A stretch of 34,567 nt of DNA from IMG/VR virus record IMGVR_UViG_3300045051_001503, positions 1 through 34,567 of that record. The stretch is one strand, 5' to 3'. Shown in pieces: positions 1,253 through 12,351 of the stretch (within the stretch, counting starts at the first letter, position 1; each line of letters starts with the position of its first letter). This DNA comes from a virus. The notes beneath the pieces are model-generated. The model did not search any database and was not told the origin of the DNA. It saw only the letters and a program-made list of their open reading frames with translations. A program made the translations under genes and the position numbers.

Positions 1253-1626
1253 TTGGCACCTGCCTTCGATGTCGGCCGGTGCTGGATGAGGGTGTGCTGG
1301 GCATCGACCGACAGAGCGAGGAGAGTCAGATAGTCGCCAGTGAATCGGTGTATGTACTGGCTGCCGCCACTGTCGTAACTGATCAGGCAGTGTGGGAATC
1401 TCCGCTGCAACTCGTGCACCAAGGCGTTGGTGCTGACGAACTGAAGCTGCGGGGTGTGGACGACGGCCAAGCCCTCACCGGTTGGATCGGGTGGAGTCGT
1501 GGCTGGGACGGCCGCCGTCCGGTGGCGACGTCGGTCCAACCAGTAGTCGACGGTCTTGTGAACTGCAGCCCCAAATAGGAGGCAGACCGTCAGCACTCCG
1601 ATGAGCTCGAAAATGATCTGCATCAT
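1249..1626 (-). CDS. Small single-span membrane protein, unknown
   Basis: A 125-aa protein I cannot assign to a family. It starts at the first of two adjacent ATG codons, 7 nt after a strong GGAGGT ribosome site. A longer in-frame reading upstream exists but only shadows the preceding gene. Residues 3-24 (IIFELIGVLTVCLLFGAAVH) form one hydrophobic span, followed by a basic patch WLDRRRHR, so the C-terminal domain is probably cytoplasmic by the positive-inside rule. The soluble part carries a proline/threonine linker and then a compact region. It is coupled at both ends by ATGA overlaps to its operon neighbours. A role in superinfection exclusion or host takeover is possible but unsupported. 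Confidence 0.7.
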   Translation of the reverse strand: MMQIIFELIGVLTVCLLFGAAVHKTVDYWLDRRRHRTAAVPATTPPDPTGEGLAVVHTPQLQFVSTNALVHELQRRFPHCLISYDSGGSQYIHRFTGDYLTLLALSVDAQHTLIQHRPTSKAGAK

Positions 1627-2030
1627 GCTGTGACCTCCTGCCGAGGGATGGGGAAGAGCCGGTGGCGGACGCTCCATGTGCTGCCGGTGACGACGACCTG
1701 GCGGGCCAGTAGGGTGGCGGGATTGACGATGACCGGGCCGAGGAGGTTGGTGGTGAACCAGCCGTCGTGCCTGGCAAGCGTGGTGAGCAGGTAGTGCGGC
1801 TGGCCTGGCTTGAGGCCGATCACCTGGAGGTCGGCCGGGGGCAACTTGAAGCGGTAGTCCGGAACGAACTGGAGCGGGTCGAGCACGAAGAACCGAGGAG
1901 GCGCGGTCTTTGGGAAGTGCTCGCAAGCCTCCATCTTGATGAAGGGGCTGTCGGGCTGCTGGGTGAGCCGGTAACGCTCGAAGTGAATCATGCCGAGCAT
2001 GCCGCCGACGATGGTGATGTTGCCTTCCAT
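1623..2030 (-). CDS. Early hypothetical protein with HF-x-KTAPP motif
   Basis: A 135-aa protein of unknown function, beta-rich by eye, with no membrane span. The start at 2030 has a GGAGA ribosome site 6 nt upstream, and the stop overlaps the next start as ATGA. Residues 38-55 contain HF-x-KTAPP-x-F-x2-L-x3-QF, which recurs almost identically in the zinc-ribbon protein encoded at 7731-8072 of the same operon. That shared stretch suggests a common binding partner or common ancestry of a short module. The C-terminal half (ARHDGWFTTNLLGPVIVNPATLLARQVVV) could be a small beta fold. No catalytic motif is visible. Confidence 0.68.
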   Translation of the reverse strand: MEGNITIVGGMLGMIHFERYRLTQQPDSPFIKMEACEHFPKTAPPRFFVLDPLQFVPDYRFKLPPADLQVIGLKPGQPHYLLTTLARHDGWFTTNLLGPVIVNPATLLARQVVVTGSTWSVRHRLFPIPRQEVTA

Positions 2031-2084
2031 AGCTGTCTCCTGCCGGGTCCGTCCGGGGGTTACCTGTTTCGATGTGGGTGCCTG

Positions 2085-2743: not shown

Positions 2744-3180
2744 GACTGCACCTCCGCGGTGCCTACTTCCGCCGTCACGACGTCTCTGGCCGCCAGCATC
2801 CGCCTGGCCCACGTCCAGCGCCAAACCATGGGGCGGAGCTGGTCGTAACGCTGCTTCGCTTCGCGGTGCTTCTCCCAGTAGGCGTGCCAGAGCTGCACGG
2901 CGTCAGCGAAGCTTTGGGTGGCATTCCTCGCTACGAAGGCCGATGCCTTGCCCCTCTCTTTCGCATCCAACCATCGCCGCGCCGACATCCCGCTGAACTG
3001 ATGCTCCCTAGAGAACTGCGGCGACTCGGGCCATTCGAAATTCTCCAGGCGGAAGTGCTGTGGTACCGGCTCGGGGCACAGCGCAGCGAGCACGGCCAGT
3101 GAGCACTGGTCGCTCAGCGGGATACCGGCCGGATCGGCTGTGAGCGGGGGTGTCGTCGGGATGGAAGTGGTCTCTGGCAT
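2740..3180 (-). CDS. Early hypothetical protein
   Basis: A 146-aa protein immediately downstream of the B-like ATPase gene. The first 20 residues are Thr/Pro-rich and probably disordered. The rest is rich in Trp, Arg and Gln, with a long basic amphipathic helix region (AYWEKHREAKQRYDQ, WRWTWARRMLAARD) that could contact DNA or a protein partner. No family is recognised. The upstream ribosome site is weak, so the start at 3180 is uncertain. The stop overlaps the next gene (ATGA), which supports coding. Being next to A and B, it may take part in transposition or replication, but this is only positional inference. Confidence 0.66.
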   Translation of the reverse strand: MPETTSIPTTPPLTADPAGIPLSDQCSLAVLAALCPEPVPQHFRLENFEWPESPQFSREHQFSGMSARRWLDAKERGKASAFVARNATQSFADAVQLWHAYWEKHREAKQRYDQLRPMVWRWTWARRMLAARDVVTAEVGTAEVQS

Positions 3181-4417: not shown

Positions 4418-6482
4418 CGGAACCTCCGGTGAAGGACAGGAACCCTGTGGGTGACTGGTGCTGGTCGGCCTGGATCGGCCGACTGATAAAGCCGCTCGGC
4501 CGCGTGGGGGCTTCCGAGCCGCCAACTGCCTTCGCGATGACTTCGAACTGATCTTCGAACCCCGTGGTGTGCGCCTTGATGGCAGGTGGGGTCACGGTCT
4601 GCGGTGTGGCCACAGCCCGCTCCCGCTGCGAGCGCCGGGCCGCTGCACGGTGGAGCTGGTGTGCCATGTCGCCAGCCCGAGCCAGGAGCGGGCGGGCCTC
4701 GTTGTGCTGGGTGTGAATCCGCTTGAGGCGACGCTTCTCGTTGATCGCCTCACGGACCTCGGCCTTGGTGGCGGCGAAGGGGAGCTTCTGATTCTGGGCG
4801 GCAGTGGTGATGAGCCTGCCATCGAGCGACAGGATGATGACCTTGCTGACGTCCTGGTCGTCGACGCAGAGCATCACCCGCTGGCGGTAGAGCTTGGTGA
4901 CCTCGGTGTCGAATCCGCCGTAGTGGATGCCGTTCCATGTGACACCGTGGCGGCCGACCTTCACCGGGCCGTACCTGGGCATCAGGGCGAACTTGAGCAT
5001 GTCCTCGCCCACCATGCGCTTGGCCTGGGTGAACTTGGCGTCGTAGGCGGCAAGTGGTGTCTGGCCGTCCATGCCGCCGCCGGTGTGGGGCCGCTGGTGG
5101 TAGTCGCCTTCCAGCCACTGGGCGAAGTCGCCGGCCAGCTCTTCGAGCGTCGGAGCTTTGCCGCCCTCGATACGATCCTGCAGGCCCTCGGGGCGGTCGC
5201 CCGTGGTGCTGCCGCAATAGGTGTCGTAGGTGCGACTGAATCGGTCGGCCATGGTGCGGAAGAGCCGCTCGACCGGCTTGGACTGGCCGTGGTAAGGCTG
5301 CACGTGCTGTACGTCGATGCCCAGTAGGCCGAAGACGCCGCGCATGCGGTCGCCGTCGACGCCCGCCCGGCGCTGGCGTTTGGTGCGGCCCTGCAGGGCG
5401 GCGGCATCGAAGTCTTTACCGTTGTCCACCTGGACCTGACCCGGCAGGCCGTGGAGCTGCAGGCCCATGCGCAGAGCTCGGAGGATGGTGTCGGTGTTGG
5501 GCTCCGCCCCCGTGATGTGCCAGCCAACGACCCGGCGACTGGCTACGTCCATCCAGCAGGTGAGCCAGGGGCGGCCGTGCACCGGCCTGCCCTGGTCATC
5601 GCGGCCCAGCAGGCAGATCACATCGAAGCGGTGGTGGTCCCCGCACCATATCTGGTTGGAGGAGAGACTGCTGTAGTCTCGCTGGATGTACGGGGCGGCC
5701 TTGTCGTTGTAGGCCTTCGGGCCACCACGCTTGGCGATCACCATCTGTGGCGGCAGGCTGTTGAGGTAACGCTGGGCGGTCTTGTAGCTGGGGGCATTCG
5801 ACACATCTCCAGACTGCCGCTGGGCTAGGTCATGAATCGCAACCTCATAAGCGATCTTCATCGACGGCTTGCGGTCGCTCAGCCATGCCTGGGCTAGGCA
5901 GGAGAAGAATGGATTGCCGTCGTGGCCGGCAGCTTCCTTGTTCGATCCGCGTTGGTCGATCAGGCCGTTGAGGCCGTCTCGGCGGTATGCCGCATGCCAA
6001 TTGAAGAGCGTGGCACGGCTGATCGATTTGCCTTCGAGGTGCGTTTGACGGGCGATGAATCGTTCGGTGATCTCGGCCTCGGCGATGCCAAGCTGCAGGC
6101 CGCCCCGGCGGGCGTCCAGCCATGCGTCTAGGATCGCCTTGCGGGCAAGGCACTGCTGACGCTGCTGGTCGCTGAGGCTGGTAAGGTCGGCCTTGATCTG
6201 CTCGGGGAACTTGACCGCGGCGAACATCGGGTCGGCATGCTGGGCGATCTGCCAAGAGGGCTTGGCACCGTTGGCTACCTTCCGAGCAAGGTGGGTGTCG
6301 GCCCAGCCCTCCAGGCACCGGCGGCGGAGCTGGCCGAGGCTCAGGCCGCTCCGCTGGGCGGCCTGTTCCAATGTCAGCCAGACGTTGGGGGTGTTGCCGG
6401 CCGCCGTGGCGGCGGCGCTGGGGTCGGGGCTCGGCCTGGCGTCTACGCCAGCCAGTCGCATGAATGGCAAGGGGCTGGTCAT
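4410..6482 (-). CDS. A: MuA-like DDE transposase
   Basis: A 690-aa transposase that would bind the phage ends, cut 3' strands and join them to target DNA, for both lysogenic insertion and replicative transposition. N-terminal residues about 33-60 (WLTLEQAAQRSGLSLGQLRRRC) are an HTH, with further DNA-binding segments up to about 180 (ISRATLFNWHAAYRRDG). The RNase H-like catalytic core has the triad Asp282 (CGDHHRFD), Asp353 (QVDNGKDFD) and Glu405 (KPVERLFRTMAD); the spacings of 71 and 52 residues are close to those of MuA (about 67 and 56). A C-terminal barrel follows, then a basic tail that may contact the B ATPase. The gene starts with a perfect AAGGAGGT ribosome site. Length is close to MuA (663 aa). 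Confidence 0.96.
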   Translation of the reverse strand: MTSPLPFMRLAGVDARPSPDPSAAATAAGNTPNVWLTLEQAAQRSGLSLGQLRRRCLEGWADTHLARKVANGAKPSWQIAQHADPMFAAVKFPEQIKADLTSLSDQQRQQCLARKAILDAWLDARRGGLQLGIAEAEITERFIARQTHLEGKSISRATLFNWHAAYRRDGLNGLIDQRGSNKEAAGHDGNPFFSCLAQAWLSDRKPSMKIAYEVAIHDLAQRQSGDVSNAPSYKTAQRYLNSLPPQMVIAKRGGPKAYNDKAAPYIQRDYSSLSSNQIWCGDHHRFDVICLLGRDDQGRPVHGRPWLTCWMDVASRRVVGWHITGAEPNTDTILRALRMGLQLHGLPGQVQVDNGKDFDAAALQGRTKRQRRAGVDGDRMRGVFGLLGIDVQHVQPYHGQSKPVERLFRTMADRFSRTYDTYCGSTTGDRPEGLQDRIEGGKAPTLEELAGDFAQWLEGDYHQRPHTGGGMDGQTPLAAYDAKFTQAKRMVGEDMLKFALMPRYGPVKVGRHGVTWNGIHYGGFDTEVTKLYRQRVMLCVDDQDVSKVIILSLDGRLITTAAQNQKLPFAATKAEVREAINEKRRLKRIHTQHNEARPLLARAGDMAHQLHRAAARRSQRERAVATPQTVTPPAIKAHTTGFEDQFEVIAKAVGGSEAPTRPSGFISRPIQADQHQSPTGFLSFTGGSDE

Positions 6483-10557: not shown

Positions 10558-11247
10558 ATGGCAAAGTGGTTTGCTGAGATCGAAGGGCAGAGGATCGGAC
10601 CCTACGATCAGGGCGAGATTGAAGCGATGGTCAAGGCGGGAGAGCTTCCCCAGCCTTCGCGTGTATGGACCGAGCCGCCGCAGGAACAGGAGTTCGACGT
10701 TACCTCCAGCCGCCCCACGGCCATCGAGTACGAAACGAAGAAGGTGCCATTGACCGCGCCAGCACCACGAGTTGCTCAAGCGGCTGTCGCACTGAGCTGG
10801 AAAACAGCCTTTAAGGCGGGTTTCTTTGGGTTTTTGGGTGCATGGTGCGCTGCAGCAATTCTTGCGGTGGTCACGCTGCTGATCATCACCGTTCTTTCGC
10901 TCGTAGGACTTTCGGCGCTACTGAATCGTGCGCCTGCCAGACCGGCTGCCGGCTTGTTTTCCAACGTGCCTTCGCCTCGGCAAACGACTGCGATGTTCAC
11001 GGGAGAGAATTGGATTGCGGCGGCGAAGACCGTTGGTGATGAAACCACGATCACATTCTCGGCGACGGTGCCATTGTTCCCGACGTCACTTCGACTGATC
11101 AACACCAGCAAGCCACCTCCCGATAACTTGATTGCGAGATTTGCCGTTCCCGCACTGAATCCTGGACAGAGCCATGTGATGACCGTCACTGGGACCAAGG
11201 ACCACGACCTAGCAACATGGCGAGCGGAGCTCCTGCCACAACGGTAG
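10558..11247 (+). CDS. GYF_2 (DUF4339) domain membrane protein
   Basis: A 229-aa protein starting 8 nt after the repressor stop, so probably co-transcribed with it in the lysogen. Residues 3-37 (WFAEIEGQRIGPYDQGEIE, then M-V-K-A-G-E-L-P and V-W) match the bacterial GYF_2 domain, a peptide-binding fold that sits N-terminal to membrane spans in many high-GC bacteria. A Pro-rich linker leads to a hydrophobic segment at about 88-122, long enough for one long or two short spans. The C-terminal 100 residues are polar and beta-rich, likely on the other side of the membrane. Lysogen-stage expression makes superinfection exclusion or host-surface modification plausible, but no function is shown by sequence. 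Confidence 0.75.
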   Translation: MAKWFAEIEGQRIGPYDQGEIEAMVKAGELPQPSRVWTEPPQEQEFDVTSSRPTAIEYETKKVPLTAPAPRVAQAAVALSWKTAFKAGFFGFLGAWCAAAILAVVTLLIITVLSLVGLSALLNRAPARPAAGLFSNVPSPRQTTAMFTGENWIAAAKTVGDETTITFSATVPLFPTSLRLINTSKPPPDNLIARFAVPALNPGQSHVMTVTGTKDHDLATWRAELLPQR

Positions 11248-11249
11248 AC

Positions 11250-11279
11250 TTGACAAACCGGCCCGACTTGATCTAGATT
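11250..11279 (+). promoter_or_regulatory. Near-consensus sigma70 promoter before the structured leader
   Basis: A perfect -35 (TTGACA, 11250-11255), an 18-bp spacer and a -10 TAGATT (11274-11279, four of six consensus). It starts directly after the stop of the GYF gene and points rightward into the hairpin-rich region and the late genes. Transcription would begin near 11286. In Mu the late promoters need the activator C and lack a good -35, so a consensus-like promoter here is notable. Confidence 0.55.
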
Positions 11280-11540
11280 CACGAACGCCGAACACCTCCC
11301 CCCCCGCCCCAACCCCAGCCCTGAGCTGAGCCAGCGGGAACTGAATAACGAAACACCTGGCCCACGCGGAAACGCGCCGCCCTCCCACGCTGGAGGGTGA
11401 CACGTAACCCTCGTGGGCCTTTGCGTTGGCCCACGCAGCGAGCATCTCGCTGACTCCCACGGATGGGATCAATGGGCACGGCGGCTCAACACACACGCGA
11501 ACTTTGCTGCGGAGTAAATCTCCTCAGCGCCGCCGCGCTC

Positions 11541-11568
11541 AGGGCAGAAGCAGGACTTGTCCTGCTCG
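11541..11568 (+). repeat. Repeat copy 1 in structured leader
   Basis: 28 bp beginning AGGGCA and containing AGCAGGACTT and TGCTCG. It matches 11920-11947 at 24 of 28 positions. This copy contains a perfect palindrome, AGCAGGAC-TT-GTCCTGCT (11549-11566). Confidence 0.6.
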
Positions 11569-11919
11569 ACCCTTCGCATTTGGCGGTTTCCCCCCTCCGC
11601 CGGGCCGGGCTGTCTGCTGGCACTAGTGGCAGCCCGGCCGAACTGCTCAACCCCCACCCGCCGGGCGGCGGGCACACCACACCCGCCGCCCTTCTTCGCA
11701 TACACACCGGGGGCCTTGTGCCCCCCGTCATCAACGCACCTCTGGTCGTGGGAAGCCTCGGCCAGAGGTTTGTGCGCTGGACAGCAAACTGTCCCAGCGG
11801 CGTCGCTCGATCCGGCCATCAGCCCGAGCTCGCGGCACTGCGCCGTGGACGCCGCCGCACACCAGAATTTTTCTCACGTTGCCCGCGTCGGCCCAGCCCG
11901 GCGGCAATCAGGCCGCCGG

Positions 11920-11947
11920 AGGGCAAGAGCAGGACTTCTCTTGCTCG
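11920..11947 (+). repeat. Repeat copy 2 in structured leader
   Basis: Partner of 11541-11568, 379 bp downstream. It again folds into a hairpin (GCAAGAG/CTCTTGC, 11923-11944), but the pairing register differs because of base changes, so the shared AGCAGGACTT is mostly in the loop here rather than in the stem. Confidence 0.6.
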
Positions 11948-11997
11948 GTGCGACATCGAAAGACCGCGCACTCAAACACCCTCAAACAGGAGACCTT

Positions 11998-12351
11998 ATG
12001 CCCAATGAGCAACTAGTCCTGACCGCCAATGAGCCCGCCGTGATCACCAAGCTCCTGCGCTCGCGCAAGGTTTGGGTGGCGGCGATCAGCGTGCTAACGG
12101 CCATCGCCTTGAAACTCGGCCTGCCGACTGACATCGCCACCAGCGTCACCAACCTGCTGATGGTGGTGGGCACGGCACTCATCGGCGGCATCGCCCTGGA
12201 AGACGGCCTGACGAACGCCGGGCAGGGGATTCCTCGAACGGCCGTCGATGGGGCCACGGCGAGCCCGCTGAGCCAAGGCGAAGCGCCCGCCTTCACCACC
12301 GCCGACGACCGGGACACCAACCCGGACGTGCTGACCGCTCGGAACACGTAG
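11998..12351 (+). CDS. Holin-like two-span membrane protein
   Basis: A 117-aa protein, first gene of the rightward late operon, with an AGGAGA ribosome site before the ATG. Residues about 27-44 (VWVAAISVLTAIALKLGL) and 49-66 (TSVTNLLMVVGTALIGGI) form two hydrophobic helices joined by a short turn (PTDIA). The N-terminus and the 50-residue C-terminal tail are polar. Size, topology and position resemble phage holins, which form membrane pores for lysis, and Mu-like phages keep lysis genes just before the terminase block. No endolysin is recognised nearby, so the holin role stays provisional. Confidence 0.6.
   Translation: MPNEQLVLTANEPAVITKLLRSRKVWVAAISVLTAIALKLGLPTDIATSVTNLLMVVGTALIGGIALEDGLTNAGQGIPRTAVDGATASPLSQGEAPAFTTADDRDTNPDVLTARNT

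Follow-up and report, generated by a model that had tools for sequence, protein, structure and literature searches.

A hairpin-packed late-operon leader with a predicted CsrA-type site in a Mu-like phage that encodes a FliW homologue

The window analysed here, the whole of a 34,567-base virus record, carries a Mu-like gene set (MuA, MuB, GemA, an S24 repressor, Mu Gp27 and a large terminase). The repressor gene and a gene for a GYF-domain protein immediately precede, on the same strand, a long structured stretch that runs to 11998, where the first late gene begins with ATG. The product of that gene matches no family and is called holin-like from its likeness by eye to the equivalently placed genes in the loci L008, L243 and L002; a search of viral contigs with it gave nothing new. 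Among the ten early proteins of the window, searched against Pfam and PHROGs, none is Q-, Mor- or C-like, and several small ones match no family. The features needed below are the following.

1623-2030, minus strand: FliW homologue in the early region (Pfam PF02623, 6.2e-20 and 1.7e-21)
2043-2056, minus strand: hairpin CCGG-ACGGAC-CCGG, two bases before the fliW Shine-Dalgarno sequence
10558-11247, plus strand: gene for a GYF-domain membrane protein, directly upstream of the promoter
11250-11279, plus strand: sigma-70-type promoter TTGACA-18-TAGATT (10 of 12 consensus positions, 0.3 such matches expected)
11286-11997, plus strand: structured late-operon leader, probably non-coding (from fold and codon statistics)
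11359-11431, plus strand: terminator-like hairpin H2, arms 11359-11369 and 11409-11419
11412-11435, plus strand: attenuator-like alternative hairpin CGTGGGCC/GGCCCACG, which shares an arm with H2, so that the two are mutually exclusive
11455-11468, plus strand: hairpin UCCC-ACGGAU-GGGA with a CsrA/RsmA-type hexaloop, a predicted site
11463-12008, plus strand: leader open reading frame with its ATG within the GGA loop, a candidate only, coding not supported
11473-11945, plus strand: hairpin array of about 11 stems, sequence not conserved
11898-11919, plus strand: hairpin CCGGCGGCAATCAGGCCGCCGG, with a near-identical copy in L008 (3209-3230)
11998-12351, plus strand: first late gene, small holin-like protein (likeness by eye only)

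A first-pass annotation had described about 710 nt of hairpin-packed, non-coding sequence between a near-consensus promoter and the first late gene, and our results bear this description out. The promoter begins 2 nt past the stop codon of the GYF-domain gene, and its position fits a transcript start near 11286. The leader has a minimum free energy of -351 kcal/mol, compared with -286 +/- 8.4 kcal/mol for 20 dinucleotide shuffles, none of which was as good (z -7.7). When the whole plus strand was scanned in sliding 240-nt segments, 11401-11640 (z -7.7) and 11641-11880 (z -7.2) ranked first and second, making this the strongest plus-strand folding signal in the record, and the genes flanking the leader gave z values near 0. 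The stems do lie nearly end to end, with 21 arm pairs of 8-20 nt recovered within 11200-12000 by an inverted-repeat search and perfect stems of 8-10 bp at 11412/11428, 11549/11559, 11603/11630, 11663/11682 and 11898/11912; the same search also recovered a nested stem at 11473-11541, in agreement with the multibranch-like nesting that had been noticed there. The Shine-Dalgarno GGAG of the first late gene (11989-11992), which lies where the leader ends, is predicted to pair with the C-rich leader start, ACCTCCCC (about 11296-11299).

The window leader is probably non-coding. Positional G+C along the open reading frame 11463-12008, which runs 11 nt into the next gene, is 0.69/0.64/0.65, and in the frame of the next gene it is 0.65/0.68/0.69 through the leader, compared with 0.64/0.50/0.86 in that gene itself. 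Codon periodicity is likewise absent from the leader of the relative L010, and the frames of the window leader are open no longer than those of shuffled sequence (P 0.46). No Rfam family reached the gathering threshold in the window and five relatives, the leader gave only chance-level matches, and blastn of the leader found no match in 50,697 phage records. An array of tRNAs or decayed tRNAs was ruled out, ARAGORN finding none; a GGCTCATAACC motif that resembles an initiator anticodon arm does occur in L006 and L008.

The first-pass annotation had thought that late control by a large structured leader would be new in a Mu-like phage. Such a leader before the late genes is supported, and four relatives have one in the same place. 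Terminase searches returned hundreds of loci, from which L006, L008 and L010 were picked by scanning the folding of the sequence ahead of the terminase; their leaders are about 600-710 nt long and fold with z values of -4.2, -7.0 and -5.8, respectively. The fourth, L243, is a Planctomycetota prophage from a complete genome and has a shorter leader of about 340 nt; it also has a GYF/TM2 protein at the position that matches the window GYF gene. All five phages share the gene order of repressor, small membrane or GYF protein, TTGACA promoter, leader and first late gene. The equivalent promoters lie at 2466 in L006, 2794 in L010, 2611 in L008 and, on the reverse strand, 9898 in L243, and TTGACAAACC is common to the window, L006 and L010 at the promoter. 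Conservation of sequence and fold is limited to a 5' module of roughly the first 100-150 nt. The rest of the leader is unconserved even where the terminases are about 50% identical, and a MAFFT alignment of four leaders is not meaningful past the module. Two pattern scans of viral contigs, one based on the distance from promoter to H2 and the other on the hairpin of L006/L010, recovered L006 and L010 themselves and otherwise chance matches.

Gaps rich in hairpins, without sequence similarity to that of the window, also precede the first late gene in more distant Mu-like prophages (Victivallaceae, Phycisphaeraceae and others): L204 (5140-5665), L144 (3850-4178), L247 (2960-3363) and, on the reverse strand, L246 (8452-8800). 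The L008 leader contains a CCTGAGCGCAGTCGAAGG repeat at about 3004-3024, which we take to be widespread in environmental genomes. In the unrelated phage L209 (836-1230), TTGACAAACC is also present, and the leader that comes after it, ahead of the first gene, is made up of very long perfect hairpins. In the Cerasicoccus prophage L194 (4580-5560), genes of the lysis region are flanked by long inverted repeats built from simple units (GCCAACTGA, GTAAGGTGA).

In the 5' module a short hairpin, which holds CGTCTCG in L006, L008, L010 and L243, is followed by an A-rich linker (AACGAAA or a close variant), a GCCC...GGGC hairpin and a T-rich tail. In the window, the linker GAATAACGAAACACC lies ahead of H2 and the T-rich tail TTTGCGTT starts at 11420. 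A counterpart of H2 with a T-rich tail is present in all five phages, about 100-150 nt downstream of the promoter, with 5, 8, 8, 6 and 7 T per 12 nt; the window has the weakest tail of the five. Hairpins that exclude H2 in a similar way occur in L006 and L010, and the 3' arm of H2 can pair downstream in the window, L006, L010 and L008. Which of the two forms wins varies between folds, so an attenuator switch at this place is a possibility.

Past the 5' module, side-by-side comparison of the leaders gives CACGGA(T/A/C)G in the window, L006, L010, L003 and L144. The motif mostly forms a hexaloop, ACGGAN, whose stem is never the same in sequence (UCCC/GGGA, CCAC/GUGG, GAAC/GUUC, CGCGC/GCGCG). The CsrA consensus is RUACARGGAUGU with the GGA in a hairpin loop (PMC7652899), and ANGGAN in the loop of these leader hairpins is the form bound by CsrA/RsmA; we predict that it is bound here too. 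The hairpin at 11455-11468 is the only ANGGAN hexaloop with a stem of at least 3 bp on the window plus strand, and its predicted probability is 0.97 in local context and 0.20 in the full leader. Elsewhere the value is 0.8-0.9 for the first site of L010, 0.6-0.9 for L144 and below 0.1 for L006 and L243, some of the relatives' GGA sites being predicted as paired. Another CsrA-like site in the window (11923-11944) appeared convincing on inspection but was dropped because the fold does not support it.

Seven leaders together hold seven ANGGAN hairpins with a stem of at least 3 bp, as against 0.22 in shuffles, and GGA ranks highest of the 64 loop triplets in them. Within these loci, and counted on one and the same strand, 10 hairpins in 3566 nt of leader compare with 11 in 121 kb elsewhere (P 3e-12), but the motif had been seen before it was counted, L144 was noticed by its motif and L153 entered through a motif scan, so this and the other P values are too favourable and the comparisons fall short of clean tests. 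With the window, L006 and L010 left out, the three in which the motif first came to notice, there are six hairpins in leaders where 0.14 are expected. The 19 leader instances of ANGGAN, taken in whether paired or not, have 47 bp of contiguous stem as against 17.1 +/- 3.6 when the 3' arms are re-dealt (none of 20,000 deals reached it), and 10 of them have stems of at least 3 bp, compared with 3.6% of the 418 instances outside leaders. In the window, L006, L010, L144 and L243 the GGA site falls at a start codon or Shine-Dalgarno sequence: an ATG lies within the loop in the window, L144 and L243, and a GGAAG precedes the ATG by 7-10 nt in L006 and L010. The window site is at the start of the leader open reading frame, not of the first late gene. 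No good GGA hexaloop hairpin was found in the L008 leader, nor any GGA hairpin in the hairpin-rich leaders of L204, L246 and L247.

Genes of the Csr system were found in three of the 22 phage records scanned (the window, L006 and L010), all of which have this type of leader; L008 has no CsrA or FliW match. The window FliW scores 71.7 bits against a cut-off of 25 and covers the full length of the model (positions 1-122 of 122). L006 and L010 encode CsrA-like proteins that are 44% identical to each other and carry an insert. These score 30.5 and 28.1 bits against Pfam PF02599 (cut-off 27) and fall below the cut-off in a six-frame search; because of the insert, the best-matching stretch covers about half of the model. 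In the CsrA-like proteins of L249 (866-1327, minus strand) and L010 (363-698, minus strand), the insert is roughly 50-60 residues long; it follows the first strands and precedes the C-terminal half. An AlphaFold model of the CsrA-like protein was not usable (pLDDT 33). By tblastn, neither the window FliW nor the L006 protein had a match in the 50,697 phage records, and viral contigs searched with the CsrA-like protein gave nothing new. Among related Planctomycetota genomes, which may not include the host of the window phage, CsrA is present in seven of seven and FliW in five, the two genes adjoining in several.

Two other loci bear on the same system. The Planctomycetota prophage L153 encodes a CsrA over the Pfam cut-off (6.9e-8); at 5301-5760 its csrA lies directly before the first late gene, and three GGA-loop hairpins fall in the first 160 nt of that gene, inside the coding sequence. 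This is the only late-strand cluster of at least 3 per 300 nt among the scanned loci (L211 is the same place). L253, the same phage as L003/L004, has at least five stable GGA-loop hairpins within 300 nt before an early gene, on the minus (early) strand at about 650-290. They include CGGGCC-ACGGAA-GGCCCG, GCGGCA-AAGGAC-TGCCGC and GGCACGCC-AACGGAC-GGCGTGCC, and by its sequence the array looks like a phage-borne RNA of the CsrB type.

The GGA-loop hairpin and the FliW gene, neither of which the first-pass annotation had picked out, point to Csr-type control. From the leader and its conserved place, the 5' module, the GGA enrichment, the FliW and CsrA-like genes and the CsrA of related hosts, all of them read from sequence, we infer transcription of the leader, CsrA binding, the direction of its effect and termination at H2. 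The leader would be the 5' part of the late operon transcript and would act in cis. Transcription would start near 11286, and the polymerase would reach H2, which the overlapping alternative hairpin could replace, about 135 nt on. CsrA, from the host or the phage, would sit on the GGA hairpin and keep ribosomes off the leader open reading frame; the long hairpin array would then fold and the late genes would be off, through a translational block together with early termination or polarity. In the window phage, FliW from the early region would bind CsrA and free the leader once the early genes have been made; in L006 and L010 the repressor could be the CsrA-like protein that the phage itself encodes. 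We think a late-operon leader gated by CsrA and relieved by FliW, behind a promoter-proximal terminator, about evenly poised between being right and being wrong. Since L008, L204, L246 and L247 have no proper GGA site, the Csr element is not the general purpose of the hairpin array, and so the array would have a job of its own, as terminators or insulation, and some members would have the Csr element as well. The window FliW could also act otherwise, for example in the control of host flagella.

Of the readings that do without Csr, we give most weight to antitermination, although we think it unlikely: the late promoter would be constitutive, H2 an early terminator and further hairpins terminator-like, with readthrough only after a Q-like protein, or the RNA itself in the manner of put or EAR, has modified RNA polymerase. 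The spacing from promoter to T-tailed hairpin in five phages is what this reading expects, as are the conserved hairpin and A-rich linker of the 5' module, the mutually exclusive hairpins and the additional T-tailed hairpins of L006, L010 and L008. A processive antitermination RNA was also among the suggestions of the first-pass annotation, and of that suggestion the T-tailed, promoter-proximal hairpin stands, whereas the searches for an Rfam family and for a Q-, Mor- or C-like early gene came back empty. T tails are moreover rare in the window array, where one of 16 strong stems has at least 5 T, and the GGA hexaloops and FliW are left unexplained. The same scarcity of T tails counts against the hairpins as an insulating bank that stops transcription of the repressor/GYF operon from reaching the lysis genes. 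The co-directional genes directly upstream would give such a bank something to insulate against, and the gaps of varied sequence before the late genes of L144, L204, L246 and L247 would suit it, but in five phages the near-consensus promoter sits before the hairpins and not after them; we consider insulation improbable.

Two further readings seem to us very improbable, and of nearly equal rank. If the region were misread coding sequence, it would encode a variable N-terminal protein to which the first late gene is fused or coupled. The frame of that gene is indeed open back through most of the leader beyond shuffles in L006 (2642-3715, P 0.013), L010 (2914-3888, P 0.034) and L008 (2765-4147, P 0.026), and less clearly so in the window (P 0.15), but this reading has to contend with the absent codon periodicity, with leader translations that show no likeness by eye across the phages, and with read-through translations of L006 and L008 that match nothing in Pfam. 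Slightly less probable still is a trans-acting small RNA, a sponge or regulator made from the leader; the length and hairpin density of the leader and the CsrB-like array of L253 speak for it, and the single ANGGAN hexaloop hairpin of the window speaks against it.

The arrangement can be set beside several known systems. In lambdoid phages, late control runs through pR', the 6S RNA and tR', with Q as antiterminator. The window resembles this in having a promoter, a short leader RNA, a terminator-like hairpin about 100-150 nt on and lysis genes first, and departs from it in the much longer structured stretch past the terminator, in having no Q-like gene that we could find and in belonging to a Mu-like transposing phage. 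The HK022 put RNA and the Bacillus EAR are processive antitermination RNAs; like them, the leader is a structured RNA early in an operon transcript, but it matches no Rfam family (put itself may be outside the library) and only its short 5' module is conserved. The further suggestion of a large ornate RNA of the GOLLD/ROOL kind did not hold up: these too are long, structured RNAs of phages and prophages, but the leader has no conserved long-range architecture and no Rfam match, and because its downstream hairpin array is unconserved it is not an RNA of this type. Sponges such as CsrB, RsmY and RsmZ likewise string hairpin after hairpin in one RNA, with GGA in at least five loops of the L253 array but in one hexaloop hairpin, not many, of the window leader.

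The closest likeness is to leaders controlled by CsrA/RsmA, such as those of E. coli pgaA and B. subtilis hag, which have a GGA hairpin loop near the Shine-Dalgarno sequence or start codon, and on which CsrA acts through translation and, in pgaA, also through termination (PMC7652899). In bacteria that have FliW, this protein is the antagonist of CsrA (PMC7652899). Unlike those leaders, the window site, where CsrA binding is predicted, belongs to a phage late operon and lies behind a terminator-like hairpin within a 700-nt array. Genes of the csrA family are carried by 30 of 2517 phage genomes (PMC7366521), and the phages described here share with these, and with plasmids that carry csrA, the presence of Csr-family genes on a mobile element. 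They differ from the catalogued cases in combining GGA hairpins of the late leader with either a FliW (the window) or a CsrA-like protein that carries an insert (L006, L010). Leaders under CsrA control and csrA genes of phages are both already known (PMC7652899, PMC7366521). Our literature search, made mostly without subscription journals, found nothing tying either of them to phage late control and no description of a phage FliW; nor did it find an account of what phage csrA genes act on.

Taken jointly, these observations suggest a Planctomycetota-associated family of Mu-like phages in which the Csr system would control the onset of late genes at the level of RNA. Such phages would have a late leader that carries CsrA-type sites and a terminator-like hairpin; some would encode CsrA-like repressors, others FliW as an anti-CsrA, and one would add a CsrB-like RNA array on its early strand. 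We hold this joint reading tentatively, a little less firmly than that of the window leader. If the leader is the target of the phage Csr genes, late lytic development would be gated after transcription has started, and a host-type RNA-binding protein and its antagonist would take the place of the activators and antiterminators known from Mu and lambda. The hairpin at 11455-11468 and the gene fliW offer a small and precise object on which to test this.
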